From Rhytidiadelphus loreus (Eukaryota; Streptophyta; Bryopsida; Hypnales; Hylocomiaceae), in assembly GCA_947034895.1 (NCBI GenBank), contig OX344764.1, positions 20,646,001-20,710,000 on the forward strand: DNA of 64,000 bases, read 5' to 3'. A model generated the notes under the pieces. That model was not told where the DNA came from, searched no databases, and was given only the letters and a program-made list of their open reading frames with translations. Shown here one piece after another: positions 39,267 to 60,504 of this stretch. Numbering within the stretch: position 1 is the first letter of the stretch; every line of letters starts with the position of its first letter. Both the position numbers and the translations under genes were made by a program.

Positions 39267-40720
39267 GTGAAGATGGAGTCGAGGTTGTCATATGCGAGAA
39301 ATGAATGGTAGAATAATGTAAGGACATTAAATATATGCAGATGGAAGAAAGATTGACGGCCATTTAAGGGATATATTTGATGACAGAGCCACTTGTACAT
39401 TAATTTCATTAGGGCTCTCACTAATGTATCCGACAGCAGAAATGTAAATGGCTGTAGATGTAGGCGCTACTTCATTACAATATTAAATAGCAACTTATAT
39501 AATGTACAATAACAAGTGCTAGAATTGGTTCTAGGGTATAATGTAGATAATCAAGAATTATGAAGAACCACTTCAGACATTACTAATTCATGGATTCAGG
39601 ATGGAGAGGATATTGCTCAATGCGAAGATTGCCGAATTTCCATATTTCAGATGAATGGAGAACAATTGGGATGTTCAGATGAATGGAGTAATAGTGAATC
39701 TGTCATTATGGTGACTCATGAATGCACTTCTCAGTGACGAGAATTGATACCAAGGCGTTAAGTAAATTATCATGGCAGTGAATAAGGAGTCAGATATTAT
39801 TCAAATAACACCACATTTCTGGAACCTTTATATTGGAGCGGACAGAAGAATCTCCCAGTCATTTACAGTCACCCCAACAAATGCTCGGAAAATCGTGCAT
39901 GACTATTTATAAGTGACGTGCCATTTTCATGTTCAGAACCACTGATCTAAAGTGGATCATTCTAGAATAATATTATTGGGGTGAAGGTGATCGTAGTGTA
40001 TAGTATGTAGAAATAATGAACGCTGATGCAGTCGGGTCCAGAAGGTGGATTTCAATCTGAATTCTGAGAAATTCAGCACATATCCAATCCAGTGAAGCAA
40101 GTAGATAATTTGATGACACGTGAGATAGACCATCCAATAACAATCAAGGAACGGTATATTTTCAATTTAGGACAAATGAATAGGTCCAAGTGCGATCCTG
40201 TGATCACGAACCTCAAACTGAATGTAGATGTGTTTGGCATAATGGAGAGAGCCCATAGTGCAATTTAAGTTTACATATGATCCAGGCATTGCTTTTCATA
40301 TATTCTACAGAGTTGGAGTCCATGTGCAGAATAAAAGAGAGATGAGCATCTGCCTTATGCCCTTATGAAAATAGCCAAATATCATTTTTTAGATCTTCAT
40401 AAATGTCAAGCTTGGAATGAAAATTACCTACATTCCGTTTCACTTGCTTCTCCAAATAGGCCTATCTTTCGTTAAATGAAGGCCCCACATACCATAGAAC
40501 AGGTGATTGCAAATGGCATCTAATATAATTATCACATGCAATATGATAACTGAATAATTCAATTTCTGATTGGTCATAATCAATTGAGATATATAATGTT
40601 TTGATATTTCATACAGAAATATCATTATCCTACCATCAGTCAACGAATTCCGAAATAAAAGGAAGGAATGGTTCAGTGTGACAGAATTTAATTTGATAAA
40701 GTGGATCCGGAAGAACATTC
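39267..40720. other. no gene seen
   Basis: Upstream region of the Mutator-like gene, presumably with its promoter. No domain, repeat or terminal inverted repeat was recognised. Confidence 0.4.
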
Positions 40721-41154: not shown

Positions 41155-42591
41155 GATGCGTGTGGTTTCGCTGGGGGATCAGCTGTCCTTCACGCCCCCC
41201 AGCGCCTTGTTTATTGTTGATGTGCTCATGTTTTGGCGGGCATCAGTTGGCCTTCACGCCCCCGATGTGCAGCCAGCGCATTCAGTCCACCAGCATCTCG
41301 GTGCCGAGAGGGCCAGGCGCGGAGGTGTTGTCTGCCCACCCACCAGCTTGCATTGGGGGATCAGCTGTCCTTCACACCCCCCAGTGCCTTGTTTTTTGTT
41401 GATGCGTGTGGTTTCGCTGGGGGATCAGTTGGCCTTCACGCCCCCTTGATTTGTTTTTGAATTCTGAGCGTGAGTGAAGGCGAGGATCAGTTGGCCTTCA
41501 CGCCCCCTTCATTTGTTTTTGAATTCTGAGCGTGAATGAAGGCGGGGATCAGTTGGCCTTCACGCCCCCTTCATTTGTTTTTGAATTCTGTGCATGAGTG
41601 ATGGCGGGGATCAGTTGGCCTTCACGCCCCCGGTGTGCAGCCAGCGCATTCAGTCCACCAGCATCTCGGTGCCGAGAGGGCCAGGCGCGGAGGTGTCGGT
41701 CTGCCCACCCACTAGCTCGCATTGGGGGATCAGCTGGCCTTTACGCCCCCCCACGCCTTGTTTTTTGGTTGATGCGTGTGGTTTCGCTGGGGGATCAGTT
41801 GACCTTCACGCCCCCCAGCGCCTTGTTTATTGTTGATGTGCTCATGTTTTGGCGGGGATTAGTTGGCCTTCACGCCCCCTTGATTTGTTTTTGAATTCTG
41901 TACGTGAGTGAAGGCGGGGATCAGTTGGCCTTCACGCCCCCTTGATTTGTTTTTGGATTCTGAGCGTGAGTGAAGGCGGGGATCAGTTGGTCTTCACGCC
42001 CCCGGTGTGCAGCTAGCGCATTCAGTCCACCAGCATCTCGGTGCCGAGAAGGCCAGGCGCAGAGGTGTCGGTCTGCCCACCCACCAGCTCGCATTGGGGG
42101 ATCAGCTGGCCTTCACGCCCCCCACGCCTTGTTTTTTGGTGATGTGCTCACGTTTTGGCGGGGATCAGTTGGCCTTCACGCCCCCAGTGTGCAGCCAGCG
42201 CATTCAGTCCACCAGCATCTCGGTGCCGAGAGGGCCAGGCGCGGAGGTGTTGTCTGCCCACCCACCAGCTCGCATTGGGGGATCAGCTGGCCTTCACGCC
42301 CCCCCACGCCTTGTTTTTTGGTTGATGCGTGTGGTTTCGCTGGGGGATCAGCTATCCTTCACGCCCATCAACGCCTTGTTTTTTGTTGATGCGTGTGGTT
42401 TCGCTGGGGGATCAGTTGGCCTTCACCCCCCGGTGTGCAGCCAACGCATTCAGTCCACCAGCATCTCGGTGCCGAGAGGGCCAGGCGCGGAGGTGTCGGT
42501 CTGCCCACCCACTAGCTCGCATTGGGGGATCAGCTGGCCTTCACGCCCCCCACGCCTTGTTTTTTGGTTGATGCGTGTGGTTTCGCTGGGG
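41155..42591. repeat. CpG-rich satellite, left part
   Basis: About 18 monomers share GGGGATCAGTTGGCCTTCAC and GCCCCC. Short monomers (~62 bp) end in TTTGTTTTTGAATTCTGAGC-type or GCGCCTTGTTTATTGTTGAT-type text; long ones (~118 bp) carry GTGTGCAGCCAGCGCATTCA, CATCTCGGTGCCGAGAGGG and CACCAGCTCGCATTGGGG. The array breaks at 42591 at the hAT insertion and resumes at 60505. The open frames here are artefacts of repeat length. Confidence 0.85.
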
Positions 42592-42810
42592 CAGGGTTGA
42601 CGAATTGGAGCGTCCAGCCCAAAATCACGTCCAAAAAGCGGACGTCCAGACGTGACGGACGCGGGGGACGCTGGGTAAAACGGAGCCGTCCGTCCGATTT
42701 ACCTCGGGGTAAATTCCGGCGTCGGAATTCCGACGCTGCCTTGGCCGTCCGAATTCCGACGCTGCCTCAGGCCGTCCGAATTCCGACGCAGTCGCAGCTG
42801 TCCTTCTGAA
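42592..42810. promoter_or_regulatory. left terminal region: TIR and CCGTC(C/G)GA cluster
   Basis: After CAGGGTT come GCGGACGTCCAG, GACGGACGC and a TTTACCTCGGGGTAAA inverted pair. Then follow three copies of CCG(T)CCGAATTCCGACGC-like motifs, including GGCCGTCCGAATTCCGACGC. By analogy with the subterminal repeats bound by hAT transposases, these are candidate transposase-binding sites. Confidence 0.65.
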
Positions 42811-43160
42811 TTGCAACCCTGGTTGAAACAGGATTAACAATCATATCATCATGATCCTCTAGCCTTTCAAAAGCATTTCAATTACCACAAGTATGAAGCC
42901 AAATTTTTTAATTTTTTTCATCATCTTGCAATATATCATGCTTCATTGTAGAAAAGCAACATACAAATGACACAATCAATTGATATTTTGGGTTGAAATC
43001 ATCTTTGGTTAAGTGCCCCCTTCAAAAATAATGGTATTACCACCATCAATAAGTTTAGGAGTATTACAATCAAAGTCTCTAACAATCAATTGTCAGTACG
43101 ACAATTTGTGCTTTATGTAATATGAGCACATGAACATTTAAGCCTATGTCCTTTCTATTT
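42811..43160. other. AT-rich spacer and 3' region of the hAT gene
   Basis: Between the left terminal cluster and the transposase stop codon. No gene; likely the 3' untranslated region. Confidence 0.4.
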
Positions 43161-46100
43161 CTAAGGATTGTAATCAAAATCTCCTTTCACCTCTGCCCCA
43201 CTACTCTCACACCCATTTCCCAATCTTGCGTCTTCGTCGTCGGATGTGTCTTCCATATCATCTGATGAAGAGCCTAGACATGTCGTTCTTCCCTCTTGTA
43301 CTTGCGTGGATGAAAGGCTTCTTCTTCGTTTGTCCTTTTTGAGTTCTTCTTTTACTCTTAATAAGGATTTCCCATTTTGTTTCTTAATGCCAACAACACT
43401 TTTCATTTTCTTCTTTGAAACATGTGGACGTGCATCAAGAGGGTTTCCAATGGCTCTTGTTTTTTTCAACGGGGATATTGCAAAAGGTTGCATGACTCTC
43501 TTCTTATTGGCTCTAGGTGATCCCCCGCCCTCTAATTTTATTGTTGAGGGCCCTCCACTGCCTCCATGAATGATTATCTTCGGTGAGATTAAAGATTGTG
43601 GTTTAGGCACTGACATTGTTGGGGGCCGTCGTGGTGGTGCATTACGAGAATGTCGAATGAACATTGAAGCCAATGTCTCATCCTTGTCATCGTCCGTGGA
43701 CGATAAAATACCTTGACTAGGCTGCCTTTCTTTTGAAATATTTGCAATCCGTTTTCCAAGCCCTAAGCTCCTAACGCCATCCAAAATTTGACTAGGGGTT
43801 TTCAATTGTGCACGTGGAGGGATGCTAGATGGTGGTACTTCAAAATCTTGCATGAGTTCCTTCTTGACTTCTCCATTGATGCACAAAATTGGACTTCTAA
43901 ACCCCACCACACATAGATCAACATTCTTCTCCGCTTCATTTGCCTTAGGGATTGGAATACTTGGGTAACCACTGTTCGCACTTGCCAATACAATGGTTGA
44001 CTCAACACTCGTGTTGCCAACGTTCATTTTGACATTCACCTCCCAAGGCTCACGTCCTCCCGTGCCGATGTGTTTGTCATTTTCTTCCGCTTGCAACACT
44101 CCTCTAAACGGAGACTCAAGTAGAAAAAGATCTTCATCCATTCTTTGCGTCCCATCATTGGGAATCGTTCTCTCATTGGCCTCTACATAAGCGTCTTCTT
44201 TTTCCGATAGAACTTTTTCGCTACTCATGAACCCACTTCCATCCACAAATCTAGCTATGGAAGGTACATCTTCATCATACCCATCATTATCCTCATCCAA
44301 TGGAAAGTCATAGATGTCTCGATCATTGGCTCGAAGATCTTCATTGGGCCGACTTGGACTATCGAACATTTCATCATCAAAATTGTGCCCGTCGTAATTC
44401 ATGGCATCTTCGTCATCCAATAGAGGCCCAACTGACCCACCATCCTCCTCGTCGTCCGAGATAAACCCCTCTGAATCTTCCGAATCCACATTGTCATCGT
44501 ACCACTTCTTCTCATCCTTTTCCTTTGATGCTGCCAAGACCTTGGAATTGGTGTACACATACACCAAGTCTGCCGCCCTTTGCGTTGTCAACTTGTTCCG
44601 AGATTTGTTGTGAACAAAAGAATAACTACTCCAATTTCGTTCACATGAAGACGAGGATACCGGTTGTGCCAAAATTCGCTTGGCTATTGGAGCAATGAGC
44701 TTCCCACATGCACTTTCAAAATCCCACCAAGCATGCGCCGACAATTGTTGCTCATCCGGATTCAACATGTTGTGAAACGGAGGTTCCCTATGACGGAAAG
44801 CTACAAATTCTTTTACCACCGAGGCGTACTCTCCTTGTTTGCAAATTTTCATTAGAACACGCTTGCATGCGTCCATTGCATCTTGGTTGTCGGCTAGATC
44901 CTTATCATGCAGAAGGTATGGATTCAAAAGAGCTTCTGCATAATGTAAATCTATCTCCCCCATTCCACGGCGTTTGAAAAAGGATCGCTCCAATGGTTCG
45001 GCGAGGTTTGTTGCCAAACAAAAAGGAGGCCCTTCTAGGCTAAGGACATGTTTCTCTAAATTCCTCATAATATGCAACACCTTACCCATGCATGGCGTCT
45101 TTGCATCCAAATCACGTAGACCATATACAACGGGGGCCACCAATTCTCGCAAATTTGTCCACCGGTCCCAATAATGCTCCTCTAGAATGAACCTCTTCAC
45201 ATCACGAGACTTCGTGCGAGATTTGGCTTTGCCATTGTCGTTGAGTGTATTCACATATGCCACCCACTGTGGATCCACCACACTTTGTTGCAATGCTCTT
45301 TTGACTTCCAACAAACGATCAATCATGATAAACACGGAGGCAAACCTTGTTTCCACCGGCTTCAACAAACTGTACTTTGTCTCATACTTCCGAAATATAG
45401 CAAGTGGCATGTGTCTTTTCTTGAAGAAATTCACTACGGTTTGGGCTCTCTTTACCGACTCTTCAATCCATTTCTCCTTTCCCCAATCTTTGAGCAACAA
45501 ATTCAAGGCATGCACCACGCATCCTTGAAAAAAATGTGTGGATATTTAGTGGATACCAAATTCCATGCTGCCGGATTCACTAGAGCATTGTCTGTGCTCA
45601 CTTGCACCACATTCGTAGGATCCACCTGCTCTATGAATTTTTCTAAAATTGTGGCCAAATATTGTGTTGTCTTTTCCACCCCACTAGTATCCACCGATCC
45701 AAGGAATTGCTCACCCGCTGAAGATACAAGCATGGCATTAATCAGTGGACGGTTTGTAACTAAGCTCCATCCATCAATGGACAATGTTGCTCCAAACTTC
45801 CTGACGCTGTCTTCGGTCCTTCTATGCACCTTCCCCACGACATTTGCCTTGGCTTGATCAAGCAATTTATGCCGTAGATCATGATATGATGGCGGAGTGT
45901 AGGCCTTACCATACTTGGAGGTTTTTTTCACCGCTTCTCTGAAAGCTACGTTTCGGGCCACTGAAAAGGGTATATTTGCCGCGTAGAAGAAATTGGCCCA
46001 CACTGCATTCAAATTCTGTTTTTTGGTTTCTTGAAAGCCATCCAAAAGCCTACTTTGTGTTGGAGGCCTATTGCTTGAGGCCCTGCGAATGTCACGTCTG

Positions 46101-46483
46101 CTACATGTTTGCATACTTGGAGTTACTTCGGAACCCCCTCCAACGACTTCTTCCGGTGTTGTACAAGAATCTTCTTGCGTAGAACGTGGCATGCCCCTCC
46201 CATTTGACATATCGCTTTCAACCATAGGCAAGTTGTTGACATTCACATTTCCACGAATAGGTCTTTGTGGAAATGCCCCATTGCATCGAAGAAATAGACT
46301 TCGAGTTTCCGCTGACAATTTCGGACACAAACTCACTCCCCTATCACGAGAACCAGGAATCGATTCATATCCTAAGTGACTCAACATACGGCTCGTTTTC
46401 TTTGAAAACACGTTGTCGCAAGCCTTGCATTGTATTTTACTCGCCGAAAGGACGACATACCAAGAGGCAAGATCCTTGCTCAT
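43161..46483 (-). pseudogene. hAT transposase with one frameshift
   Basis: The first frame (ATG at 46483 to 45503) holds a BED-like zinc finger (CKAC, SRMLSHL, LCPKL; Cys19, Cys22, His36) and a DUF659-type RNase H fold start (LSIDGWSLVTNRP, VSTDNALVNPAAW). The second frame (45518-43161) continues GCVVHALNLLLKDW and includes the C-terminal hAT dimerisation signature (WWDFES, PVSSSSCERNWS, NKSRNKL; about 44520-44720), then a ~440-residue acidic and basic tail. The two frames join at a run of seven A on the plus strand (45528-45534); one more base would make HIFFQGCVVHALN, the expected family text. So this is either a one-base deletion, slippage or a sequencing error. The total would be about 1,110 residues, longer than most hAT transposases because of the tail. 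A CCGTCGGA cluster lies just upstream. Confidence 0.85.
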
Positions 46484-46799
46484 GGTCACAAGTTCCAAAC
46501 TTGAACTTCTTCAAATTCGCAAGTTCTGGAAAATGTAAACACAAGTGAACCAATGTTTAAAATTGGGTTTACGGTCGTGCACAAAGCCTTGAAATTCAAG
46601 GCCCCCCTTCCACCAAACGATGCATTACCAAGCAAGGGACACAAAATAAATTGCAGCTCCTAGCCCTTGGAAATCGTAGTGTTCAATGGATTTGGAGTGC
46701 CTTCATACGCCTTGTTTCTTCTACTTATACTTTGTAACTGAATACAGGTGGTGCTGACCGTTATTCAGAAAGATGAATTTTAAAAACAATATCAACGGA

Positions 46800-46970
46800 C
46801 TCATTCTCCCCAGAATGGCCCGTCTGATTTGACCATCCCGTCCGAACATTCCGTCGGATCGGGCCAGCTCGTCGGAACAGGCCAGCTCGTCGGAACAGGC
46901 CAGCTCGTCGGAACAGGCCAGCCCGTCGGAACTGGCCGTCGGATCAGCACGTCCGATCTTTTTATCCGGA
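46800..46970. promoter_or_regulatory. CGTCGGA cluster upstream of the hAT gene
   Basis: Tandem GGCCAGCTCGTCGGAACA units (17 bp, three in a row) are followed by GGCCGTCGGATCAGCACGTC, with CCGTCCGAACATTCCGTCGG before them. It lies 300-480 bp upstream of the transposase ATG. Same motif as at the element ends and before the other three genes. Confidence 0.65.
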
Positions 46971-47578
46971 TTCGGGACTTCTCGTAGTTCAGTTTCAAAT
47001 AGAACTGTTTCACACTTTCAGCAAAAGTGTCCAAGGCTTATCCAAACATTTGGACTTGCCTTCTTCCAATCGGGGAGATCGCGGGTTCAAATCCCGGCTC
47101 TGATTAATACCTTCAAGCATGTGAGAGGTGCACAACACTAGTTGTGCAAAGCAATACTAACAAGTTTGTAGGAATTGATTAGAGCCTTTTGTGCCAAAAA
47201 ATTTTGGAGTTCATATTTTTGCAATGAAATAATGTTACAATGGAAAAAATACTACATATTCTATGAACAAATCATTATATCATAGCGAAAGAAGAAAAAG
47301 CGACATTTGACCAACCGATTCAACAAACTAGCATGCATTGAAAGATCCATACATATCATGAACATTGGAATACAAATAAATAAATATAGTTATATATTTA
47401 TATATATTTATATATATGTATATATAAAAAAGACATACATACGTAGATATTAAAGGCAAAACAAGACATGCCGTGATTACAATTATTTACTACTATTTTC
47501 ACCTCGTGACATTAAAACAAAAGTCTATCGAGTATAGAGTTCTATTTCTTCTATTGCAATAGACCTATTGGTCCATTT
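46971..47578. other. spacer with AT microsatellite
   Basis: A short TATATATTTATATATATGTA microsatellite lies at about 47385-47435. A tRNA-like box at 47085-47100 is discussed under rejected items. Otherwise no gene. Confidence 0.45.
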
Positions 47579-50500
47579 CTATTTAATTCTATCATTGTTG
47601 CCATCTCCCGAACCACCAGACAGACCAGAGGACCCCTCTGTATTGCGTTGCGCCACTTGAGCGGCAATCCTTGGACTTCCGCAACGAGAAATTCCCCCAG
47701 GGCTTGTTGAGCTTAAGAACCGATTTGATTTGGTTGCCCTGTCCACAACGACAAATTGTCGTATTGTTTCCGGTGAATAGTCATCGTCATCTTCAATCTT
47801 CCGCTTCTGTTTGCGCTTCGGAGTCAAATCCACATCCATCGCCTTTAAGGCTCTCAGAGCAGCATCCACTCGATTTACCAACACATTCACCATATGGTCA
47901 TCACTAGGGTTGTTTACCCTAAACCCTTCGGTGACTCCTTCCAATAGGAACGCCCTTCATTGACCTATGATGTCAGCCACCCTCCTATCAAATGCCCCGG
48001 CCACCTCCACGAACGAATCCCCTTTGTTTGATTCTCCATCCGTTTCCACCTGAACACGAATTGATGCAGCTTCTTCCAGCTTAGATAAGAACAGTGCCTT
48101 GCCTATGGGAACGTGATTATATGCCTCGTATTGTTCACTGAAGCCAAGAGGATGCTCCACCTCTATCCAATTGCCATCTGGCCCTTTCTGTACTTCTTTT
48201 TCGGGAAACCGGAAAAATTTATGGTGTTGCATGCTCCAATGTCCTCCCATACTGCGACAAAACAATTCACGAGCCTCGCCATCATCAATGGCACGAGCCC
48301 GCAACTCCACTTCCATATTTTGGGTCATCCACATGAAGAAATCCATCGGTTGCATGGATGCATCATACAATTCATGCTTCTGTTCCTTTGGATCCCATAT
48401 GAGGGGTTTCCCCCAATGCGAATAATTCTGAAATTTGTATGGCCCTTGGTCAAGTGGAAGAGTCCATCTATTGTATTTGTGGCCGGGGGGCATACCTTCC
48501 AAGATGCCAAACATCTCGTAGAACCTCGGACTCAAAGGAGAACGGCACTCGGCACAAGCGGATCGAAACAGAGATGCTTGCACAACGCATTTGATATGAA
48601 AAACGTGGCGACAATGGCCCATGGTGAAGGCTCCTTCACGCCCAAAAGGACCTTGGCAAATGCTACAATGACCCTTCAACATTTCATTGCCTAGATTAGA
48701 ACCATACACAACTATCTTCTCGTTCTTCTTGATGTGTGCTGAAAGCGTTGTGTAAGGAGTCCATCCTTCTCCTACTTCAAAAGTCCAATTGATGTCGCGA
48801 TTGTGGGCTAGCGATTCCTTCTTGGCGTGGTTCAACCGCTCGTACATGGCATCCATGTCTCCCCAATATGTCATTGGCATAGACCCCCAAGAATGTTGCT
48901 CGACCGCACTTTTGAATTTCTTCAAAGTAGCCTCAACGACATTGCAATCTTCATCCGACTTCATTGCAAGGGTGCAAACCCCGATCATTGCCCGAGATGC
49001 TAAAGACGGTTTGTCTTGAAGTTGTTGTATCCATGTCAACCACCGAGACTTCGATCCGCTCGCCGGTAGACATTCATCCATGTTCTCCACTCGTTTCATC
49101 CGGTCCAACCTCGATTGAAGAAGGGCATTTTCTTGGTTTACCTCATTCAATCTTCGATTCAACTCGCTCCAAGTTGGAACCTCATCCACCTTTCTGGTCT
49201 CAAGCTCCTCCACTGCTTTGGCCTTCTCAAATGGAAGAGAGAGTTGATCGCTTTCTTGAGTTTCTTGCGACCTCGGTAGTTGGATCTCCACTGTAGAGAG
49301 GCTCTTTTCTTCATTTCGTTCCTTCAAATATTTCTCGCTATACTTCCTCTTGGACGCCACCAATTGCCTTCCCAATGACTCACAATTTTCAACGACCCTT
49401 CCATACTTTTTACTCCACTCGTCATTCTTCTGCTCCAGCTCCACGATTGTCTTCAAGTAGTTGTACTTCTCATCAAAAAGTGTTAGCGCTCTACTAGCAA
49501 ACTTGTGAAAAGTCAATCCACCCTTCAATAGTGGATGCGATAATGTGGATAAATTTCTGGCCAATTCCATAGCCAACGGGGCCATTTCCGCTACAGCTTC
49601 AGCAGAACATGTTATTGCTTGAGCGGATGTCACAAAATCGTGAAGCCCAAGTTTGTTTTCGGTTGCCGTAGAGCACTCGGCCTCGTTCACGGGTTCACCT
49701 TCTCTCGATCCATCCATTTGAGGTGGGTACTCAACTCCGCACCTAAGTATGATTTCAAGATGCTCCGGATTTGGGATTTGACCCACATATTGCAATCTTC
49801 TTGAAGTTAAAGTGCACAAGAGCGGATACTTGCGCACAATCTCCTCGCCATCAATATTGGAGGTCGTTGCCACGTTTTGAAGTCGCTCTACAAACAGACT
49901 TGACGGTTGAACTTCACGGATCGGGCTCAATATTGGACTAGGTGGCGTTGGCGAGTCCACGTTTGGAGGAACGTACTTCAAACTATCGAGAGCATCGCTG
50001 TCTATAAGCCGTTCAATTGTAGCATTTGTTCTTGCAACTTTGTCTTCATCCATGTCTTCTCGCGACGAGGAAGAGGAGGCAACTTCTTTCACGAGGTTGT
50101 GCTTGTTTGGAGCAATGCTTTGCTCACCCGTGATTGGTACATGAACCGAGGTGGGTAAACAAGTCTCCGGATCCTTGAAATTGACCTTCCGAAATACACC
50201 TCCCGAAGAGGCATTGGTGGCCTCCGCTCCTAGTTGTGTGGGGTCCAACTGTACTGTGTCGCCTACACCCTGTGAAACCTTCATTGTAGGCGTTCTAGTA
50301 TTTTTTAATACTATTTTAGATTCAACCGTTTGTGCCCCGTGGTTGTATAAATCGGGAATATCCTTTTGATTTTTCGGAAGTTGAAGCGGCAATTGCGATG
50401 TCGTTGGAAACGTGCTCCAATCCACCTTCCGACCCAATATGAGTTCTGCATACACCATAGATGCCGTGCTGTAATTTATGTATCCTTTACTCCTTGCCTT

Positions 50501-50833
50501 GTTGCCGAAGAGGGCCTTCCACACCTCGTCTGATCGATGTACAAAATGACTATCCTTGCAAGTCCACGGCTTACAATTGAAATATCTTGTGTGGGTTGCG
50601 TGGCAATCCCGAGGCCACAACTTGTCAATGTGGTACATTTTGACAAATTGTTTGCACATTTTAGAGCTCCAATATTCAGCCTCCACTTTCTCCCAGTCAG
50701 GCTCCGCTTTGATGTTCGGATCATCTAAAATGTCATACTGCAACACATGTCCAGCCCCCCTTGTTTTAATTTTCTTCGGTGGAGGTTGTGTTGAAGTCGT
50801 CCCAATAGCCCCTCCATCACCTTCCGCGGCCAT
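47579..50833 (-). CDS. large RING-finger protein (hAT cargo), in-frame TGA near the 3' end
   Basis: ATG at 50833 opens a 958-codon frame to a TGA at 47957. Residues ~54-142 form a domain shared with the gene at 54217: MCKQFVKMYHIDKLWPRD, then SHFVHRSDEV, INYSTASMVYAELIL, VDW. Leucine-rich coiled-coil-like stretches lie near 453-520 and 553-580. A RING finger spans ~722-763 with C-x2-C (CSIC), GHCRHVFHIKC and C-x2-C (CAEC), the metal-ligand pattern of RING E3 ubiquitin ligases, which bind E2 enzymes. After the TGA the same frame stays open for about 125 codons to 47579, including the basic PKRKQKRK (nuclear-signal-like) and a Ser/Gly-rich tail. The stop may be a recent CGA to TGA change, or the natural end. 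E3 activity is inferred from the RING only; what it targets is unknown. Confidence 0.75.
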
Positions 50834-51039
50834 GCTTGGTACTTTGAATTGAAGAGCAATTCAAAGTAAAAAATTCGGTCAATTGAAATATACGTGTAGG
50901 TAATTTAAATCTGCCAAAGTCACACCGTAATAAAATATGTTGGACCCCTTCTCTCCACCAAGTAAGAGCAACTAGCGCCAGAGGCAACAGCAGCACATCT
51001 GACTTGGCAAGCTTGGAGAGAAGAAGTGAAAAGAAATGA
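50834..51039 (-). other. 5' leader of the RING gene
   Basis: Sequence between the ATG of the RING gene and the motif cluster; likely its 5' untranslated region and core promoter. No distinct box recognised. Confidence 0.35.
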
Positions 51040-51385
51040 AGGGCCCGTCCGATCATATAGCCGTCCGAAACCAACCCTAATACCGGTTCGGTTCCGGACC
51101 GCGATCTGTCCGACTTTGGGCCGTCGGATCGGACCTGGTCGTCCGATCGGGTGGACCGAACAGGCCGTCGCCGTCCGATCAGGCCGTCGGAAGAGGCCGT
51201 CGGATCCGACGTCACCGGCCAATGAGGCCGTCGGATCGAACGCTGCCGTCGGATCAAACACGCCGGGGCCGTCGGAAGACCAAGTTTCGGAGTCGCCTGC
51301 GCCCACTCAGGCAGACCGAACAAGCCGTGGCCGTCAGATCAGGCTGTCGGATCAGGCCGTCGGATGGATTTTAGGTCTTCAGGTC
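51040..51385. promoter_or_regulatory. CCGTCGGATC cluster upstream of the RING gene
   Basis: More than a dozen motifs of the form CCGTCGGA, CCGTCCGATC and TCGGATCAGGCCGTCGGA occur in 345 bp, in both orientations. This is the densest of the internal clusters. It lies 200-550 bp upstream of the RING gene's ATG. Confidence 0.7.
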
Positions 51386-52726
51386 TCCGATCAGGCCATC
51401 GTCTCCTCTGCACGGACCTGCTGAACTGTCATCCTCCAGCTGTGTACACACTGTTCAAACAACGGATCCTTGAAATAGTTAAATCACTGTAAAAAATAAT
51501 CAATGAAATGTAGAAAGCATCCAATGTGTGAAAGCTTATTGTTCATTTTCTTCCCTACATTGTGAGATTGTTTTTAATGCTAAACCCTAGACCCTAAACC
51601 CTAAACCCTACAAATTATTAAATTTCCATATAAAATATTCACATGCTCAACAAAAAATTGGTGCAGCATGCGGCATCACTTTTACGATTTCACCGAGTAT
51701 TCCCACCATCCCAATATCCACTAGTAGCAATTTTGGCTCGCCCTCTATACATGGTTACATGGATACATTATTACATTGCAATTTGAAGACATTTATTTTT
51801 TTGGATCCACAAAGTACATGACTTCTTCTATGATTTTAAGATATGATTTAAAAAGTCAATGTGGAAATGTTGGTTGAAAATTGAAATGTAATTTGAATGT
51901 AGAGACCATTGTGTAATTGATCCATTGAACTTGTAGTCTACATGTGATAATTTAAATGTACTATACATGTGAACCTTGTCAACTAATTAGTTCTTCATTT
52001 CTATGTTTCCGGGTATGAATTATTACATGGCACCGTGGAAATTCATAAAGTGAAAGGTTGTCCCACAAAATTGACAACTGAATATGATGATGAGATGATC
52101 ACTCATGTACGAGAATTAATAGAAGGAGAACGTCACATATGATCATTTGAAAGTTTTTTATTTACTTGTAAAATGTACTACTCATTCATGAATTCATGAC
52201 ATTGTAATATGGAAAAAATTTCACCATATACCCTATATTGATATATTTTTTCATTTCATTGAGAAGGGGGAGAGAGGGGCCAACTTGAAGGCCTTCACCA
52301 ATTTTTCTAAAGTTGAATTCATTAATCTATTAATTTAGGTTTCATTAATTATATGTATGACGAAATGTTAAGCTTTCATACCTTGCAGTATTGCACAAAA
52401 ATATATTATATTATAGAATCATGGATAATCTCTTTATTCAAGTTCTAGCCTATTAGAGCATGTTCTTGAGTGTTGCCAAAATAAATCTATAAATCGATAG
52501 AGTTCATTTCTGCATGCAATTGCTAGTGAGATTGATAACTATTAACTAGAGAAGAAGTTCTACATGTTTTTGTGGAACTGAAAGAGAGTGGGCACATTTG
52601 AGCAAAAAATAAATATTTCTTCAAATAAATTATGGAAAGGTAGTTTTTCTACTTTTACATGGTCAACAATTATGGAATCTCTCTTTCTTTACTCAAAAAA
52701 TGCAGTTGTAAGTGCCCCATAAGGCC
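51386..52726. other. central spacer with telomere-type repeat
   Basis: This is the middle of the giant element, between the outward-facing gene pairs. At 51581-51610 lies an interstitial AAACCCTAGACCCTAAACCC run (about three to four CCCTAAA units); in plants such 'telo boxes' can occur in promoters. The rest is AT-rich with no gene seen. Confidence 0.5.
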
Positions 52727-52734
52727 ATAACCGT

Positions 52735-53311
52735 CTTGGGGGGTGCACTTAGTTCTACTAAATTACTATAACAAATCACGTGTAAACAAGTGGTTCTCTA
52801 ATAAACTATAATTTCAACCTAAAATTTTGAACATTGTTTAATAATGACTATAGCTTTCTATTGCCAAAATTTCCAACTCAAATAAAATATGAAATGATTT
52901 CTAGAAGAGGTTGAAACTTGAAAATAAACTAAAATGGCATGTTTTTCAATTGAAATAATTATAGAGGACACATTTAGATGACCATTGAGTCAATATTCAA
53001 TTCAAAATGAGCTTTCAATAATGAGTTATTTTTAGGAATTTTTTGTTCATTTTTTAGACAATTTTGTCTTATAATAGAGGGGTGTGAAAGCTATTTTTCA
53101 ATTCTATAGTGTATCTTTTTACTTCAAAAATTTGTAACTAATTATTATTAACAAATAAAAATATCAATAATTCAAAACATAAACTTTTAAAGTAGGAAAA
53201 TCTATTCATATTTTTTTAATTTTGTTTTATTTAAAATTCAAAAAGTATATAGGGGGTCCAAAGTTTTGTTCGCACTTGGTTTCTAATGGACACTCTAAAT
53301 GACCCCCCGAG
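52735..53311. mobile_element. non-autonomous hAT-like MITE, copy B, nested in the giant element
   Basis: Ends CTTGGGGGGTGCACTTAG and CTAAATGACCCCCCGAG are inverted relatives. ATAACCGT flanks both sides exactly (52727-52734, 53312-53319). It is 577 bp, uninterrupted, and aligns inverted with the copy at 16350-17165. Its presence dates it after, or at least within, the giant hAT. Confidence 0.85.
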
Positions 53312-53319
53312 ATAACCGT

Positions 53320-53689
53320 AGTTCATGAATTTCTACAATTATTTCAAGAAAGCGAATTAGAGGATGTACATGATTTATTAAAAAAATTACGCATTTCGAA
53401 GCAATGGGATCCTAATTTTTCAAGGGCATAGCCAAACCCTCATGAATTTGGGAATTCAAAAATTCCATACTTCTTTCTTCTTCTTATTTTCCTTCTACAT
53501 GTTATACAAGGGTTTAGTGTGTTACAAGCAACATTTTAGATCGTACGGTTCAGTCCCCAAATTTTTTACGTGCTCACAGGGGGGGCCAAAAAAGGGTACG
53601 CTGAATTGCCCCCTTCGTTGCCCCTGCTACAGGGCAAAGCCTGCAATTTTGAAAGGGGCAAAACTTCCCTTGTTCTCCAAAATTCTCCT
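53320..53689. other. spacer, no gene supported
   Basis: A short ATG-less frame runs through here (53442-53810) but has no domain. It lies between the nested MITE and the motif cluster. Confidence 0.3.
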
Positions 53690-53900
53690 CGCCGGACGGC
53701 CCCTCCGCCCTTCCGATGCCCCGTCCAACTTTCCGACGCCCCGTCCGATCTGTCGACGCCCCGTCCGAGCTGTTCATCCGCATGTCGGTGCGTCCGCACT
53801 TTCTCGGTGACCGTGCGATCCATCGTGCGACAATTTCGGGCCGCACGATGGGGGCATCGGAAAACAGGCCGTCGGATTCGGACGGACCCTAAAGCGCCGT
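53690..53900. promoter_or_regulatory. CCGTCCGA cluster upstream of the UIM gene
   Basis: Repeats of TTCCGACGCCCCGTCC and GTCGACGCCCCGTCCGA, then GGCCGTCGGATTCGGACGGA and GCCGTCGGAAG. It lies 320-530 bp upstream of the ATG at 54217, facing the similar cluster at 51040 across the central spacer. Confidence 0.65.
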
Positions 53901-54216
53901 CGGAAGCCATAAATAGTGTTTCCGACGCCTCATTTTTCCACAGCCGTTTCCCTCCTGAAGTGGGTTTTCCAGTGCCTGATGTGAATCTGTGGCTCTGCGC
54001 GCCCCTTTCGGTTTGGTGTGTGAACGGTTGTGCTTGGATACTTGGTGGTTTTAAGTGATTTGGTTTGAATAATTTCTTGTATGCGAGGAATTGTGAATTA
54101 GAAAACCGTTTCACTCCATTGCATTTGAATTTTGAAGTGAGAAGAACTTGGTGCACTTGGTGCAATATTTTGGGAAAATTCGGACATCAATTATCTTCAT
54201 TGTAATCAAGGTTATC

Positions 54217-55221
54217 ATGTCTCGCCCTAAACCATCAAGTAAGAGTAAGAAAGGGAAATCTCAAGATATGAATTGGGTTGACTGGGAAAACCCTAATTGC
54301 GTAGCTGAAGATGGATGGGAAGAAGAGCCAAAGAAAGTTTGGGACTGCACCACATGCAAGAAGTACGTGAAGATGACTCACCTCTCTAAAATGTGGTCAC
54401 GAGAACGTGCTGAAGGCCAAGTTCGTCGATGGGAAGGACAAATGTCCACATGTACGAGCCGACACTTTCTTCACCGTTACGAAGAAGTAACACGTTCAGT
54501 GGGTTTACATGACTCCAAACCTAATATAATGAACTATTCTAACATGGCTATGGTTTGGGCAGAGATTGTACTCCACAAAGATGTGGATTGGCGTATCATT
54601 TATGGGAAACATGTGGATAGTTTGAATCGGAATGATGCAATGATTTATACTAGCTGGACTGCTACAAGTGATTGCCAGCCAGAGTGGTCCAATCGAGGGC
54701 AGTTTGGATTTCCTGCAGTTGTGGTGTCACATGGAGAAGATGAATGGTCGAGTGACGGTGATGAAGGTGAAGCTCCAGCACCAGTGACATTGGGAGAGGA
54801 GCACGAGCGTAAAAAAGATCGAGAAGACATTGAATACGAACAACAAATGCAAGAAGCGATGCGTAGAAGCGTAGAGGACCGTGGTCGACAAGATGGGTAT
54901 GATGGATTCTACCAACGTGACCGTGGTGCATATGACCCACTACATGGGTCCTATGGTTCACACTATGGCCATGACCCCCAACATGGCTCTCAAAACGTTG
55001 GAGGCTCTTATTATGGCGGTTCAACTCAAAGAGGATCACTCCACGGTGATTCAATTCCTCCTCCAACTTTTGGAGGTCATTCCTCCGCAAATTATGGACA
55101 AGGAGGTGGGCAAAGCGGATATGTTCCCGACTACTATGGCGGAGGACCATATCTCGGTGTTTATGGTGGTGGTCCTACAGGCCCAAGTCAGAGAGATGAC
55201 ACGGATTCAGATTCCGAATGA
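54217..55221 (+). CDS. protein with RING-gene N-terminal domain, candidate UIM and Gly/Tyr-rich tail (hAT cargo)
   Basis: ATG at 54217 (MSRPKPSSKSKKGKSQ) opens 334 codons; the longer open frame upstream lacks a better ATG. Residues ~41-135 match the N-terminal domain of the RING protein: CTTCKKYVKMTHLSKMW, SRHFLHRYEEV, IMNYSNMAMVWAEIVLH, VDW. Here the first part has CxxC, so it may bind zinc together with later Cys/His. Residues ~205-222 (DIEYEQQMQEAMRRSVED) fit the ubiquitin-interacting motif pattern, an acidic start then hydrophobic-x-x-Ala-x3-Ser-x2-acidic. Residues ~225-325 are Gly/Tyr/Ser/His-rich (GSYGSHYGHD, GGSYYGGS, YYGGGPYLG) and look disordered. It ends acidic, DDTDSDSE. Together these suggest a partner or reader in the same ubiquitin process as the RING protein. 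Function is inference. Confidence 0.75.
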   Translation: MSRPKPSSKSKKGKSQDMNWVDWENPNCVAEDGWEEEPKKVWDCTTCKKYVKMTHLSKMWSRERAEGQVRRWEGQMSTCTSRHFLHRYEEVTRSVGLHDSKPNIMNYSNMAMVWAEIVLHKDVDWRIIYGKHVDSLNRNDAMIYTSWTATSDCQPEWSNRGQFGFPAVVVSHGEDEWSSDGDEGEAPAPVTLGEEHERKKDREDIEYEQQMQEAMRRSVEDRGRQDGYDGFYQRDRGAYDPLHGSYGSHYGHDPQHGSQNVGGSYYGGSTQRGSLHGDSIPPPTFGGHSSANYGQGGGQSGYVPDYYGGGPYLGVYGGGPTGPSQRDDTDSDSE

Positions 55222-56639
55222 AGCCAAATCAAACACTAATACACTATTGTATTGTTTGTCTTATAATATGGGCTCTAAATTTAGATTTAGTTGTTTTCCA
55301 TACAATGATGCAATATAGAATGTAGCAAGCATAGTGTAATGGTGTCAATGAGTGGTCGTCCGTCGTCACGTACAATGCAAAACCGCTACAATTGCGATGT
55401 ATTGAAATATATTATTAGAATGATAGATTTCTCATGTTCATGGTATTATTGAATGCCATTGCTATGCAATGGATCAAGCCATGGTGTTTTGGAAGCTAAG
55501 TATAGCAATGGCCCAGCTTTTACCATTATGTTTTTGTTGGTGTCCGTGCGCAAATTTTTTTGCACCATAACCTATTAACTTCAAAATGGGTGAGACCGAG
55601 CAACCCAAAAAATCCACTAGAAATTTGAATCAAAAATGATTTTTTTTTTTCTTGTATATTATATTGGATTTTTCTAAATGGGATGCTTTGATTCATTCCA
55701 AATTTCCAATTGGATTCATGATGCGAAAGTTATGGATTTTCTTGTTTTGTGGGCTATCATAGGATTATCTTGAAAGAAATTCTTTTCTTCCACTTGGAAT
55801 GCTAATTCATGATTTTAAGTTACAAACTTTGAATGTTCGTATCGTGGAAAGTATAATCTAAATGAAAAATTTCATTATATCATTAGCTTGAGTGAAGAAT
55901 ATTGCATGCAAATTCTCCATTTGTTTCAAGCAAAAAAAAAAAGAATATTGGATGCATTGGTTTAAAAGAAATATTTTTATTAAAATAAATAAAAATCTCT
56001 ATATAAACTCTTCGAAATTGTTGCAAAAATGTGAGTCCGAAAATGGGCTTCTTAGGAAGTAAAGGATTAACCCTTTAGGGCCTAAGGAGCCCCAAGCAAA
56101 CTCTTGAATTCTTTTGGAATCAAATTTCATATCAAAATTTTATCATTTAATTTAAGTTATTATTTTTCACAAATAACCATTCATGTCTTCTATCAGATCT
56201 GAATTTTTAAAATTTTTTGGGAAAAAAATGAAATTTATAAGATTTTCTAGAGTTTCTATCTTTGAAAAATCGTAGTAATTACAAAAGAGCTCACTTTACA
56301 ATGAAATTTTTATAGAAAATAGGAAAAATTATAATGAACATTATGGTGAAGTTTTCATGCTCCCTTTCGTTATATACAAATAAATTTGATAGAGAAACAT
56401 GTCCCACAGTGTATTTTGAAACTTTCTAAATCCCAACTTCAAATTGCCATAGATAAGTCATTATTGCTCCAAATTTGATGGCCAATGGCTCATTGGAAGC
56501 GAAATTCCCGTGCCCTCACATCTCATTTACACCTCACAGTCAAATGAGGTTAGGAAAGTGTTTTAATTTCCAAAATTCTGTTTAAAACGACCAAATTTGG
56601 CATGCTCGGCCCCCCTAAAGGATTAAGGGGTGAAAATAC
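55222..56639. other. AT-rich spacer between the UIM and kinase-like genes
   Basis: No gene. The phrases CCTTTAGGGCCTAAG (near 56080) and CCCCTAAAGGATTAAGGGG (near 56610) recur in similar form at 59470 and 59865, so the two right-arm spacers share short repeats. Confidence 0.4.
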
Positions 56640-56880
56640 CATTTATCGTAGCCATCCGATCTGTCGGCTTGCCGCGCCATCCAATCTGTCGAACTGCCGC
56701 GCCGTCCGATCTGTCGTCCTGCCGCGCCGTCCGATCTGTCGCACGGCAGCCTGTCCGCCTCGCGGGGGCCGTCCGATCTGTCGGCCGCGTCGTGGGCGTC
56801 GGATTTCCGACGCGGACCGTGCGTCGGAAAAGGGCGTCGGAAAGGTATAAGAGAGTCGGACGGGCCCGTCCGATCCTCAC
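56640..56880. promoter_or_regulatory. CCGTCCGATCTGTCG cluster upstream of the kinase-like gene
   Basis: Four or more near-tandem units of GCCGCGCCGTCCGATCTGTC are followed by GGGCGTCGGATTTCCGACGC and GCGTCGGAAAAGGGCGTCGG. A candidate TATA-like 'gtataagaga' follows at about 56845. The cluster lies 200-450 bp upstream of the ATG at 57085. Confidence 0.65.
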
Positions 56881-57084
56881 TTTTGTTTTCCCCCTTGCAT
56901 ATTGCAAGAGTGAAGCGGAGAGCTTGGTGGTTCATGCCCCCATTGGTTCCTCTTCTTGGGAAAGCAAGAGTGCAATTTGGGGGCCCCTTATTGCCATTTT
57001 TTTCAGTTTTGGTTCGAGTTTCACTTGAACTTGAAATTATCATTTCATTTTGCGAATATTCATTCGTACAAGAAGTTCATCACG

Positions 57085-58545
57085 ATGCCACGAACAAAGA
57101 AGGCTGCAAAGAGGAAACAAATGGAGCATGAAGGAGGTTCACACAATGAGGCAAGTAGGGACATTCCCTCTGATGCATGCAAGAGATTTTTGATCAAGTT
57201 GATCATCAATTTCTATGAGTCGGAAACGACGATGTCACTACACAACAAATACGTTAGGTACAACGAGGAGTGCTCGCAAAAATTCAAGGCGGACATGTGG
57301 CAACTGATGATGAATGCGCTTAGCGTTCCGGAATGGCACCATGAGACGGAGAAGAAAGGCTTTCCAAAATTCTTGGAGAATAGGGTCCACGATGCATTGT
57401 GGAATGCATCAATGGTGCTAGCAAGGTACGGCTCTCAATATCGGGAAAATGATGAGGATTTTCGTGAAGTCATTCTGAAAGCTGACTTGTTTGTTGCACG
57501 ATGCAAGCCATTTGCAAAGAGCCGTAACAGACGAGGATCTTCGGGTTGGTGGAATAGCACTAATGGAGTGGCTGAACTGGATCGGGGCAGACAACACCTC
57601 ATAGCGCTTCCCGACACAGCACGAATAATCGCTCAAGACCAAAAAACCATGAAGGGTGGATATGCAACAATTCGTAGGGTTCGAATTGAAGGGTGTCCAG
57701 GGATAGCTACATTTTGGGAGTTTGCAGCAAAGCTATCCAATCAACACCGCACACAACCTCATCTTGCGAGATTGGAACACCAGAACGAGTCAATGGCAGT
57801 GCGGATTCCACATCCTGGAGTTATACGGTTTGCTGCAGTTCATGGAACAACAAATGAAGGGTATTCGTATTGGTGGAGTGGCGGAACACTACGGCACATG
57901 ATGCACTTGGATAATGATTATCCAAACAACATTGCCATTCGGTTGCACTATTCGAGGCCAACAGAGGTAGAGTTGATTGAAGCTTACCGTCTCGGACGAT
58001 TTAGGAAGAAGCGCACGCAACTCGCATGGGCATTATTGCACATCATGAATGCGGTGCACATTTCTGGACATCTTCACAATGACATCTCTCCAGACAACAT
58101 AATGTTTCACTTTCCTGAAGACGAGTCACACGTGTACATTGGAGTCCGCGATTGGGGCATGACTACCGTAGCTTCTGAACCAATGAAGTCTTTGTACACG
58201 TTTACATGTGCGAGGGACATGGAGGAGGCTTTGAGAAAGAAGTGGTGGGTGGACCCGAAGATTGCATATGTGCACAAAAGAGATGCAGATGGGTCAATCA
58301 TTCCAAATCTATCACGTGCATCAGAAGAATATGCGGTTTGTAAACTCGCTCAACGCATCAACAAGGATTGCATGTCTGAAGAATACTACAAGTTGCATCG
58401 GGAATCAGCTGAACTGACGAAGTTGAGTCACCACGTTTTGGCCCTTATGTTTCACTCATACATGGAGCGGCCTTGCAGTGAAGGTTCGAATTACCGTGGC
58501 GGTTTGTCTTACATCATCAATTTCTTTTCCGGTCGGTGCAATTGA
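57085..58545 (+). CDS. divergent protein-kinase-like protein (hAT cargo)
   Basis: ATG at 57085 opens MPRTKKAAKRKQM, a basic nuclear-signal-like start, and 486 codons in one exon. The first ~180 residues are helical and unassigned. A kinase fold follows: GGYATIRRV as a glycine-loop-like start near residue 191, VRIPHPGVIRF (like the HPNI-type strand), a WWSGGTLRHMM hinge, HLHNDISPDNIMFHF as catalytic loop near 331 (Asp333, Asn338 present) and VRDWG in place of DFG near 356. The APE motif is not evident, and the ATP lysine cannot be assigned with confidence. The catalytic Asp, Asn and metal Asp survive, so activity is possible. It is the last gene before the right end. A captured and diverged host kinase is the simplest origin. 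Confidence 0.7.
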   Translation: MPRTKKAAKRKQMEHEGGSHNEASRDIPSDACKRFLIKLIINFYESETTMSLHNKYVRYNEECSQKFKADMWQLMMNALSVPEWHHETEKKGFPKFLENRVHDALWNASMVLARYGSQYRENDEDFREVILKADLFVARCKPFAKSRNRRGSSGWWNSTNGVAELDRGRQHLIALPDTARIIAQDQKTMKGGYATIRRVRIEGCPGIATFWEFAAKLSNQHRTQPHLARLEHQNESMAVRIPHPGVIRFAAVHGTTNEGYSYWWSGGTLRHMMHLDNDYPNNIAIRLHYSRPTEVELIEAYRLGRFRKKRTQLAWALLHIMNAVHISGHLHNDISPDNIMFHFPEDESHVYIGVRDWGMTTVASEPMKSLYTFTCARDMEEALRKKWWVDPKIAYVHKRDADGSIIPNLSRASEEYAVCKLAQRINKDCMSEEYYKLHRESAELTKLSHHVLALMFHSYMERPCSEGSNYRGGLSYIINFFSGRCN

Positions 58546-60149
58546 CTTGTGCTGGATGAGCACTTTCGTCATTCATATTAGTAGTTCAACGTACTTTATA
58601 GTAGCATAGAACTATAGAGGTATGTAGTAAATATAGAATGAGGATGTACGCGTGCACACTATATAGTGCCTAATTATGCAATGTCAATGTATGACCATAT
58701 ATGTGGAATATGATAATTATATATTTTGAAAGTTCGGTGTATTTGAGTAAGTAATGCTTATGATTTTTTGTCACATGAAACTATGAAAGATACATATGAC
58801 TTGAATGAAAAAGGCACTACTTGTTGTTGTTGAATGCTGAGGTGGCAATTAGCAAGGGTGTGTGGAGATTGTTTTCATTTTAAGCTTTGTAAACCCCATC
58901 GTCCAAGCAGCTTCAAACTTCAGAAGGTCATAGGAATCACAGATTTTGAAATTTTCCCAAACAAAAATTTCTTGCTTGTCAAATATAAGTATGCCTTTGT
59001 ATCCATTGTTCGGATTTTCAAAATCTCAAAGTATGTGGTGGGAAAACTGATTCAAAGATGACTTAGTGCATTGTCAATATTTGGGACATTGTGGCATAAT
59101 GGCATTGCAAAATTTTTTTGGAGGTGTTAGGTGTGTTGGATTTCTTTGAAAATTGGTATGCATATGCCCAACTTCAATACCTACAAGAAAATTTTTAATT
59201 TTATGGTGTGTAGTGCAAAAAAATTGAGCATGAGGCGGTCAAAGGCATCTAAAATTCTGGGGCATAGTGAAAAAAAAAAAAAAGAGACTTTGAATGCAAA
59301 TATCTCTTTATCCGTAGGGTGAAAACTCCCAAAAGTTTACCACACCCTCTCATACAAGTTCACTTCAAGATCTTACGGTTACATTTTCAAAGAAAACATT
59401 TTCACAACATCGTGAATGATCGTAGCTGGAATGGCATTTTTCAGTGATTCTGGACCCAAAAAATGGCTCGGTCCTTTAGGGCTTAAGAAAGAAATGGTTA
59501 GAATAAAAATGCGTTGAATTCTATAGTTGGGAACAATACAGAATTTTTAAGAATTTTAATTTTTTCCGAAGTCAAATTACTTTCATGAGATCAAATGGGG
59601 ATTCTTTCAGTACTCCCTAAAGTACAAGAATGGGTTAATTTTTGGGCCTAAATCCTTGTTAATTAAAAAAATGACATTTCTATAAAACCCTAAAAAAATA
59701 GTACCATCATGCATTTCGACACTATTTAGTATTTAGACCTTGACCCTTTTTCTTTTTCTTTTTGTTAGAATATTTTCCATGACCGTCAATAGGGACCTTA
59801 AACAAAACTTATTGTATACCGAAGTTCAACAATGGGTTCTATTTCTTTTCATAGCTCATTTGAACCCCTAAAGGACAAAGCGTCCCTTCCGTTGACAAAT
59901 GGATTTCAGGTTGATACCTATGGGCTGAATTTGTCTCCTGATTTTCTTAAATTTTTTTTTAAGATAGAAAAATGGAAAACCAATGTGAAAATATAATTTT
60001 TTTCTCAATCGGTACCCCTCTACAAAAGTTATGCCCATGAAACTCAAAACTTGGGAGATCGGGCAACACAAAGATGTTTCAGAATTAAAATTTTTTATTT
60101 CTAAATTTTTTTAACTCATACATTATACTTTTGTCAAGGAAAAGGGCTG
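58546..60149. other. AT-rich right-arm spacer, no gene seen
   Basis: 3' flank of the kinase-like gene up to the right terminal cluster. Contains short homopolymer A runs and the recurring CCTTTAGGGCTTAAG phrase. No domain recognised. Confidence 0.4.
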
Positions 60150-60504
60150 GATTAAACCACACCGTCGGATCAGGCCGTCGGATCGGATGTGGCCATCTGA
60201 TCAGACCGTCGGAAGAGGATATCCGATCAGCCCGTCGGATTGGACCTGGCCGTCGGATCGGATGTGGCCATCCGATCAGACCGTCGGAAGACCATACCCG
60301 ATCGGACCGTTCGATTAGGCCGTCGGATCGAACCTGGCCGTCGGAAGAGGTCGTCTGATCAGGCCATCGGATCGGGAGTGACCGTCCGATCGGCCAAGCC
60401 GTCAGAAGTTAACTTTTTATTTACCCTAGGTAAAAAACAGAAAAACTGGACGTCCGGGGGGTCCGGACGCGGATGCTGGACGTCCGGACGTCCTGGTAAC
60501 CCTG
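60150..60504. promoter_or_regulatory. right terminal region: CCGTCGGATC cluster and TIR
   Basis: At 60160-60410 about fifteen motifs such as CCGTCGGATCAGGCCGTCGG, GGCCATCCGATCAGACCGTC and GACCGTCCGATCGGCC occur. Then comes a TTTACCCTAGGTAAA pair, GGACGTCCGG repeats and the terminal GGTAACCCTG. It mirrors the left end in plan (motifs inside, GGACGTCC palindromes and CAGGGTT outside). Confidence 0.7.

Follow-up and report, generated by a model that had tools for sequence, protein, structure and literature searches.

A window of 64,000 nucleotides from the moss Rhytidiadelphus loreus (the whole stretch analysed; contig OX344764.1 of assembly GCA_947034895.1) contains a large insertion within a satellite array, which an earlier reading of the same letters, hereafter the original prediction, had described as a giant hAT transposon carrying three non-transposase genes. 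The exact border check gives a single inserted unit at 42592-60504, with 17,913 bp. Its terminal inverted repeat is short, comprising the 7 bp CAGGGTT, and subterminal GGACGTCC-type repeats lie inward of it. The CAGGGTT and AACCCTG borders, the perfect CGCTGGGG duplication and the normal satellite unit left once the insertion is removed, all part of that prediction, were exact on re-reading and on joining of the flanks: the joined flanks (240 bp) align straight through the junction with further satellite units in the window, the closest match reaching 92% identity over all 240 bp, and the joined junction is spanned by 39 matching pieces, against one only (itself) for each real junction. A second AACCCTG at 42815-42821 produces a 230-bp unit with inverted ends within 42592-42821, at the element's left end, without a target duplication of its own.

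From left to right, the element carries genes for a transposase (-), a RING protein (-), a small protein (+) and a kinase-like protein (+), each a single open frame with a matching promoter array. The presence of three further genes beside the transposase is thus as originally described, according to the open frames and a Pfam scan. The coordinates of all features are presented in Table 1.

Table 1. Features of the element and its borders in the window.
Feature	Coordinates	Strand	Description or basis
Left target duplication copy, 8 bp	42584..42591		CGCTGGGG; window letters, flank joining
Left terminal repeat	42592..42598	+	CAGGGTT; also in 10/10 copies shown
Left-end array	42691..42788		7 CGTCSGA sites; word count
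hAT transposase gene	43161..46483	-	weak BED finger, DUF659, hAT dimerisation domain, ~450-aa tail; no intron seen
Transposase promoter array	46839..46956		8 CGTCSGA sites; word count
RING gene	47957..50833	-	N-domain, coiled coils, RING-H2-like finger
RING promoter array	51046..51364		12 CGTCSGA sites; word count
Central AT-rich spacer	51431..53689		G+C content 0.32; separates two divergent gene pairs
Small-gene promoter array	53732..53927		7 CGTCSGA sites; word count
Small gene, 334 aa	54217..55221	+	RING-protein N-domain and Gly/Tyr/Ser-rich tail; open in window copy
Kinase promoter array	56703..56873		9 CGTCSGA sites; word count
Protein-kinase-like gene, 486 aa	57085..58545	+	very divergent; open frame, Pfam, alignment
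Right-end array	60163..60389		9 CGTCSGA sites; word count
Right terminal repeat	60498..60504	+	AACCCTG; window letters
Right target duplication copy, 8 bp	60505..60512		CGCTGGGG; window letters, flank joining

The transposase matches the Pfam domains DUF659 (E-value 5.9e-25) and PF05699, the hAT dimerisation domain (E-value 5.2e-9, which passes the curated cut-off). Transposases of the hAT type have catalytic D, D and E residues; in the alignment, the stretches IDGW, TDNA and CERNW are present and mostly conserved. The tail of the protein is long and acidic, and its end residues (SSGAEVKGD type) are repeated in 10 of 13 aligned relatives.

The RING and small proteins have in common an N-terminal domain of about 115 residues, the N-domain (hhalign probability 99.2, E-value 3.4e-19). 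The predicted model of this domain is compact and helical, and its core is modelled with confidence; no structural match for it in the PDB was found in two looks, one of them covering the 11 top-ranked Foldseek chains only. The full-length RING protein model, with a mean predicted local distance difference test (pLDDT) score of 49, was not used; the profile of this protein against PDB sequences matches two RING fingers only. A third, more divergent N-domain gene lies on the minus strand at C1:71861016-71862674, with 28-33% identity to the RING-family proteins; its frame of at least 553 aa runs off the stretch, and it perhaps belongs to another element family. In the kinase, K216, D333, N338 and D356 are invariant in the alignment of relatives, which we take to be the residues expected in an active kinase; the Pfam score is weak, and the profile finds no relative among PDB sequences at an E-value of 0.001. 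The RING and kinase-like proteins are putative enzymes.

In the window copy, three of the four genes carry damage. The frame of the transposase is interrupted near 45.50-45.55 kb; the RING gene meets an early in-frame stop at 47957-47959, past which the homologous frame continues open; and the kinase stops about 13 residues short of its relatives. Assembly errors may be behind this damage.

The original prediction depended on other copies having the same ends and the same genes, and such copies exist. In the genome searched (407 Mb, 489 contigs), the left end is found at no fewer than 40 loci, window included (52 matches from the 40 candidates scored among 311, less 11 weak self-like ones and with one split locus joined). 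The right end is also found at no fewer than 40 loci (42 matches, with 40 of 2,028 candidates scored, one dropped and one merged). A partner among the scored right ends exists for 15 of the 40 left ends. The first look gave 2,028 candidates for the right end and 311 for the left end, so the right end may be the only part that many elements have in common. Twelve of the 39 other left-end loci were fetched, ten by rank and two picked for their more divergent ends. At least 80% of the element is present in ten of these copies, 68% in c2 and 8% in c9, with identities of 95.7-97.3%. We refer to this set, with the window element, as family A.

Both ends are readable in nine elements, including the window one. 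Eight of them present perfect 8-bp target duplications, all different: CGCTGGGG in the window, GTTAGCGT in c1, TTCGACAA in c4, TTAAATAT in c5, GATGTATG in c6, ATACGGTT in c8, GACTATTG in c10 and ATTGATGT in c12. The ninth, c11, matches in 7 of 8 positions, and for c2, c3, c7 and c9 (four of the 13 elements) the stretches read showed no right end. The genome-wide count of linkage covers the transposase and small genes only: of 57 transposase loci, 50 are accompanied within 40 kb by a small-gene locus in the proper orientation, compared with 0.27 expected by chance, and the distance is 8.0-9.2 kb in 36 of those 50. The unit at 42592-60504 belongs to a transposon family and is not a composite. 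An assembly artefact, or a chance composite of neighbouring repeats, might have been suspected from the location in satellite arrays, where assemblies err; however, the same ends and body recur at other loci with different flanks and their own target duplications, which rules this explanation out and leaves it with practically no probability.

A short repeated word marks both ends of the element and each of its promoters. The words CGTCGGA and CGTCCGA were taken from an enriched-word count in the window element, so that the second element family described below (family B) serves as an independent test. The window contains 62 CGTC(C/G)GA sites, 55 of which are inside the element and 52 of these 55 in six arrays, which occupy 1,648 of the 17,913 bp (9%) and lie at both ends and upstream of each gene. 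With start codons of our own choosing, 35 sites lie no more than 500 bp upstream of one of the four start codons, a further 16 at most 500 bp from an end, and 4 elsewhere. Full shuffles yielded a mean of 2.1 sites and shuffles within 250-bp blocks a mean of 3.5, with a maximum of 9 in both cases (200 shuffles each). All six arrays were found in the seven elements checked (the window element and six copies), with varying numbers of sites.

The four-gene element could be real and its arrays nonetheless bound by host factors, or be neutrally expanding CpG-rich minisatellites, with no reader encoded by the element. The arrays are indeed GC-rich (0.59-0.66), CpG-rich (observed/expected 1.2-1.5) and partly tandem, and their sizes vary between copies, as would suit this alternative. 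Neutral minisatellites, however, are not expected at both ends and four promoters and almost nowhere else, and the block shuffles, which keep local composition, fail to give the observed count. With the family B evidence below, which bears on the host factor, we consider this alternative unlikely, although it is the strongest of the rivals.

The three extra genes could also be passengers, that is, host genes picked up by chance through Pack-type capture. Plant DNA transposons do capture genes, and the decay of family A looks neutral. Each of the 12 other copies has at least one gene damaged or missing (with the RING and kinase ends and the transposase middle outside the scoring), and elsewhere in the genome 10 of 57 transposase loci have frames of at least 1,106 aa with no stop in the matched stretch, which is the C-terminal part. 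Changes private to one copy comprise 531 non-synonymous ones, 41 of them stops, and 200 synonymous ones; the resulting non-synonymous to synonymous ratio (N/S), about 2.65, is near the neutral expectation. Among changes common to several copies the ratio is weakly lower (90 non-synonymous, including 8 stops, to 49 synonymous; Fisher p 0.065). By itself, this within-family test does not show selection on the extra genes.

The comparison with family B speaks against capture. In the small-gene search, 120 of 2,219 candidates were scored: 96 loci present 73-100% identity, and 24 present 67-69%, 23 of the latter without stops in the main match. One of these 24 loci, in the same genome, was read and is the family B element described here, 14.2 kb long, from CAGGGTT at C1:235902 to AACCCTG at C1:250101, with the genes small (+), kinase (-), RING (+) and transposase (+). 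When it is read in reverse, a comparison by eye shows ends similar to family A's, and the order becomes transposase, RING, kinase and small (inverted), so that one gene has moved and flipped relative to family A. The ratio of non-synonymous to synonymous substitution rates (dN/dS) between the families is 0.34 for the small gene, 0.19 for the kinase, 0.33 for the RING gene (696 codons), and 0.36 and 0.23 for the C and N parts of the transposase, respectively, values that are rough because the synonymous rate (dS) is 0.64-1.44. Pieces shorter than 60 aa were left out, and so were matches of small to RING genes that arise from the common domain. Ratios of 0.19-0.36 indicate that, during the divergence of the two families, purifying selection acted on each of the four genes. 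Given a sister element with the same gene set and these ratios, the single open frames with matching promoter arrays, and the apparent joint occurrence of RING and transposase genes on foreign contigs described below, capture of passengers is very improbable.

The word itself differs in family B, which has 32 sites of CCGTCCGC, a sequence with no site in the window element and at most 2 in 100 shuffles. These sites form five arrays: one joint array for the left end and the small-gene promoter, one each for the kinase, RING and transposase promoters, and one at the right end. Conversely, CCGTCGGA and CCGTCCGA occur 20 and 16 times in family A, and 5 and 4 times in family B. The kinase core promoters of the two families look homologous by eye, with the word altered in place. 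In each family, TATA boxes adjoin sites in three promoters (RING, kinase and small gene), the exception being that of the transposase. A single host factor is hard to square with a word that changed in all family B arrays within the same host genome.

Family A copy c4 (C1) has, nested in its right end, a 5,653-bp CAGGGTT...AACCCTG element that shows its own 8-bp duplication, GATCAGCC. The ends of this inner element are like those of family B (82% over 161 bp and 73% over 204 bp), it has GCGGACGG arrays, and no open reading frame of 120 aa was found in it; it is likely a non-autonomous family B derivative.

Outside this genome, protein relatives number 9 for RING, 49 for the kinase and 160 for the transposase (120 listed). 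Three pairs of RING and transposase relatives are on foreign contigs of exactly equal size, at 17,649, 45,926 and 7,321 bp, where 0.07 are expected (5e-5 of 20,000 trials); this comparison used 119 of the 120 listed transposase entries, one being without a contig, and equal size is no proof of the same contig. No RING and kinase pairs were found on foreign contigs of equal size. The kinase relatives include two records named from the moss Ceratodon purpureus, one of which, KC19_VG055000 (P0044), represents a cluster of 126 member sequences.

The multi-gene content raises the possibility of a fusion of a hAT element with a virus. Such fusions exist: Teratorn is reportedly a piggyBac-like element fused with a herpesvirus. 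In the present case, no capsid, polymerase or packaging gene was found by Pfam in the seven scanned frames, and the alignment scans found no relative of the RING protein or the kinase in viral contigs. Hence, a fusion with a virus has a very small probability, lower still than that of passenger capture. In prokaryote genomes, too, the scans found no RING or kinase relatives.

The reading of the unit as a multi-gene hAT element is supported by the many copies, their target duplications and the sister element with the same gene set. In our judgement, the best explanation, and a probable one, is a giant four-gene hAT transposon in which a protein of the element reads a family-specific word at the ends and promoters. 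On this view, the unit belongs to the hAT superfamily as a giant DNA transposon of the cut-and-paste kind with four conserved genes; its transposase moves it, with formation of 8-bp target duplications, and the three other genes are long-standing parts of it. The word, which is CCGTC(C/G)GA for family A and predominantly CCGTCCGC for family B, would most likely be read by an element-encoded protein, either through the BED finger of the transposase or through the N-domain of the RING and small proteins. The transposase is the simplest candidate, as it must bind the ends, with the N-domain proteins as the alternative. One factor on the end and promoter arrays could both build the transposition complex and turn on the four genes, or keep them unsilenced. 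Through ubiquitin and phosphorylation signalling, the RING protein and the kinase would target proteins of the host or of the element and so counter silencing. If a binder encoded by the element coevolves with its word, the word is expected to change at the two ends and at every promoter of an element, and such a change is seen in one element of the same host genome. That the arrays form a putative regulon within a transposon, with a DNA-binding factor and its word coevolving as a family-specific recognition code, is a more tentative proposal, which we rate as possible but not quite probable.

Several observations weigh against this explanation. The BED zinc finger (PF02892) of the transposase is a weak match under the Pfam cut-off (E-value 0.007), and a DNA-binding role for the N-domain is a guess, given a model without structural match. 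None of the 13 examined family A elements has all four genes undamaged, and the near-neutral N/S of the copies implies that family A looks like a burst whose copies are now in neutral decay. The family B element was read as two stretches with a 1-kb gap, its flanks show no matching 8-bp duplication (in this one element), the frame of its RING gene is interrupted close to the beginning, and its change of word is incomplete, as CCGTCGGA and CCGTCCGA remain. The dS between the families, noted above, counts on the same side. Among foreign contigs, the kinase and transposase relatives present one equal-size coincidence, which is not significant (0.28) and within chance.

As for the surroundings of the element, the satellite at 41172-42591 and 60505-63113 has several interleaved periods of 62, 182, 307 and 372 bp, and further tandem arrays in the window are at 24115-25904 and 33035-33942, with units of 63/127 bp and 203/404 bp. 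Ordinary protein-kinase frames, unlike the element's kinase, are at 939-2804 (-) and 5357-6511 (+), with Pkinase E-values of 1.8e-30 and 9.9e-22. The frames 28845-29579, 35354-36595 and 36843-39287, all on the minus strand, are open and without a Pfam match; the first two have a common C-terminal stretch (IERCVKG.RRKWVLS, by eye), which suggests another repeated gene family.

Elements of the hAT superfamily (Ac/Ds, Tam3 and hobo type) have CAGGG-type ends, 8-bp target duplications and subterminal repeats. The window element resembles them in these three respects and in its hAT dimerisation and DUF659 domains, and differs in size (17.9 kb and, in family B, 14.2 kb, rather than a few kb), in its three conserved extra genes and in having the repeated word also at every internal promoter. 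The 8-bp rule for hAT is given in the available part of PMC12730594. The same part describes hAT7 of rust fungi, with an extra TET/JBP dioxygenase gene discussed in relation to silencing; this is likewise a hAT element with an extra gene, but it has 7-bp duplications, another gene and fungal hosts, and no promoter arrays are described there. ToxhAT, which we take as a hAT from its name alone, is a 14-kb transposon of wheat-pathogen fungi with terminal inverted repeats and a non-transposase gene (PMC12506042, in the portion consulted). It is similar in being large, bounded by terminal inverted repeats and with a non-transposase gene aboard, whereas it is a single copy with unrelated cargo and the present family has many copies and a gene set apparently under purifying selection. 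According to the original prediction, no hAT with this gene set was known to have been described. The set itself did not appear in the literature searched, though as hAT7 and ToxhAT illustrate, hATs with extra genes as such are in print from fungi; most subscription papers are outside the literature in which no four-gene hAT was found, so its absence from print is not established.

Other superfamilies offer closer parallels in size and regulation. Giant KDZ and EnSpm elements of Ectocarpus and other algae exceed 10 kb, carry accessory genes, often have a broken transposase and inhabit hosts with a long haploid stage (PMC12477816, in the text available). All these traits are found here as well, in other superfamilies and with other genes. 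In the main text of a 2019 review of giant eukaryotic transposons, as far as a term search of it goes, the word hAT is absent (PMC6431247). In the VANDAL elements of Arabidopsis, among them Hiun, the word YAGTATTAY lies in dense non-coding arrays and is bound by VANC21, and a different word is recognised by VANC6 in other families (PMC5735166, in the sections seen). The likeness consists of a short word in dense non-coding arrays, words that differ between related families (family B being one element) and accessory genes. The difference is one of superfamily, as the present element has a hAT transposase and no Mutator-type or named VANC-like domain in the Pfam-scanned frames. We propose that the four-gene hAT may do as VANDAL and VANC do, with an unrelated protein.

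With this element, hAT joins the superfamilies that have giant multi-gene members in a plant-like genome, and the proposed recognition code would be an apparently independent parallel to that of VANC and VANDAL. If the regulon exists, one word would be both the transposition site and the switch for four genes, including a kinase and an E3-like protein, and related families in one genome would stay insulated from each other. The contrast of two families, CCGTCGGA and CCGTCCGA on one side and CCGTCCGC on the other, makes the coevolution of binder and word directly testable. Given kinase and RING genes borne by the element and apparently under purifying selection, their targets would show which host pathways a transposon must touch. 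Finally, the 126-member cluster of the Ceratodon purpureus kinase relative suggests that element genes of this kind may be counted as host genes in moss gene catalogues.

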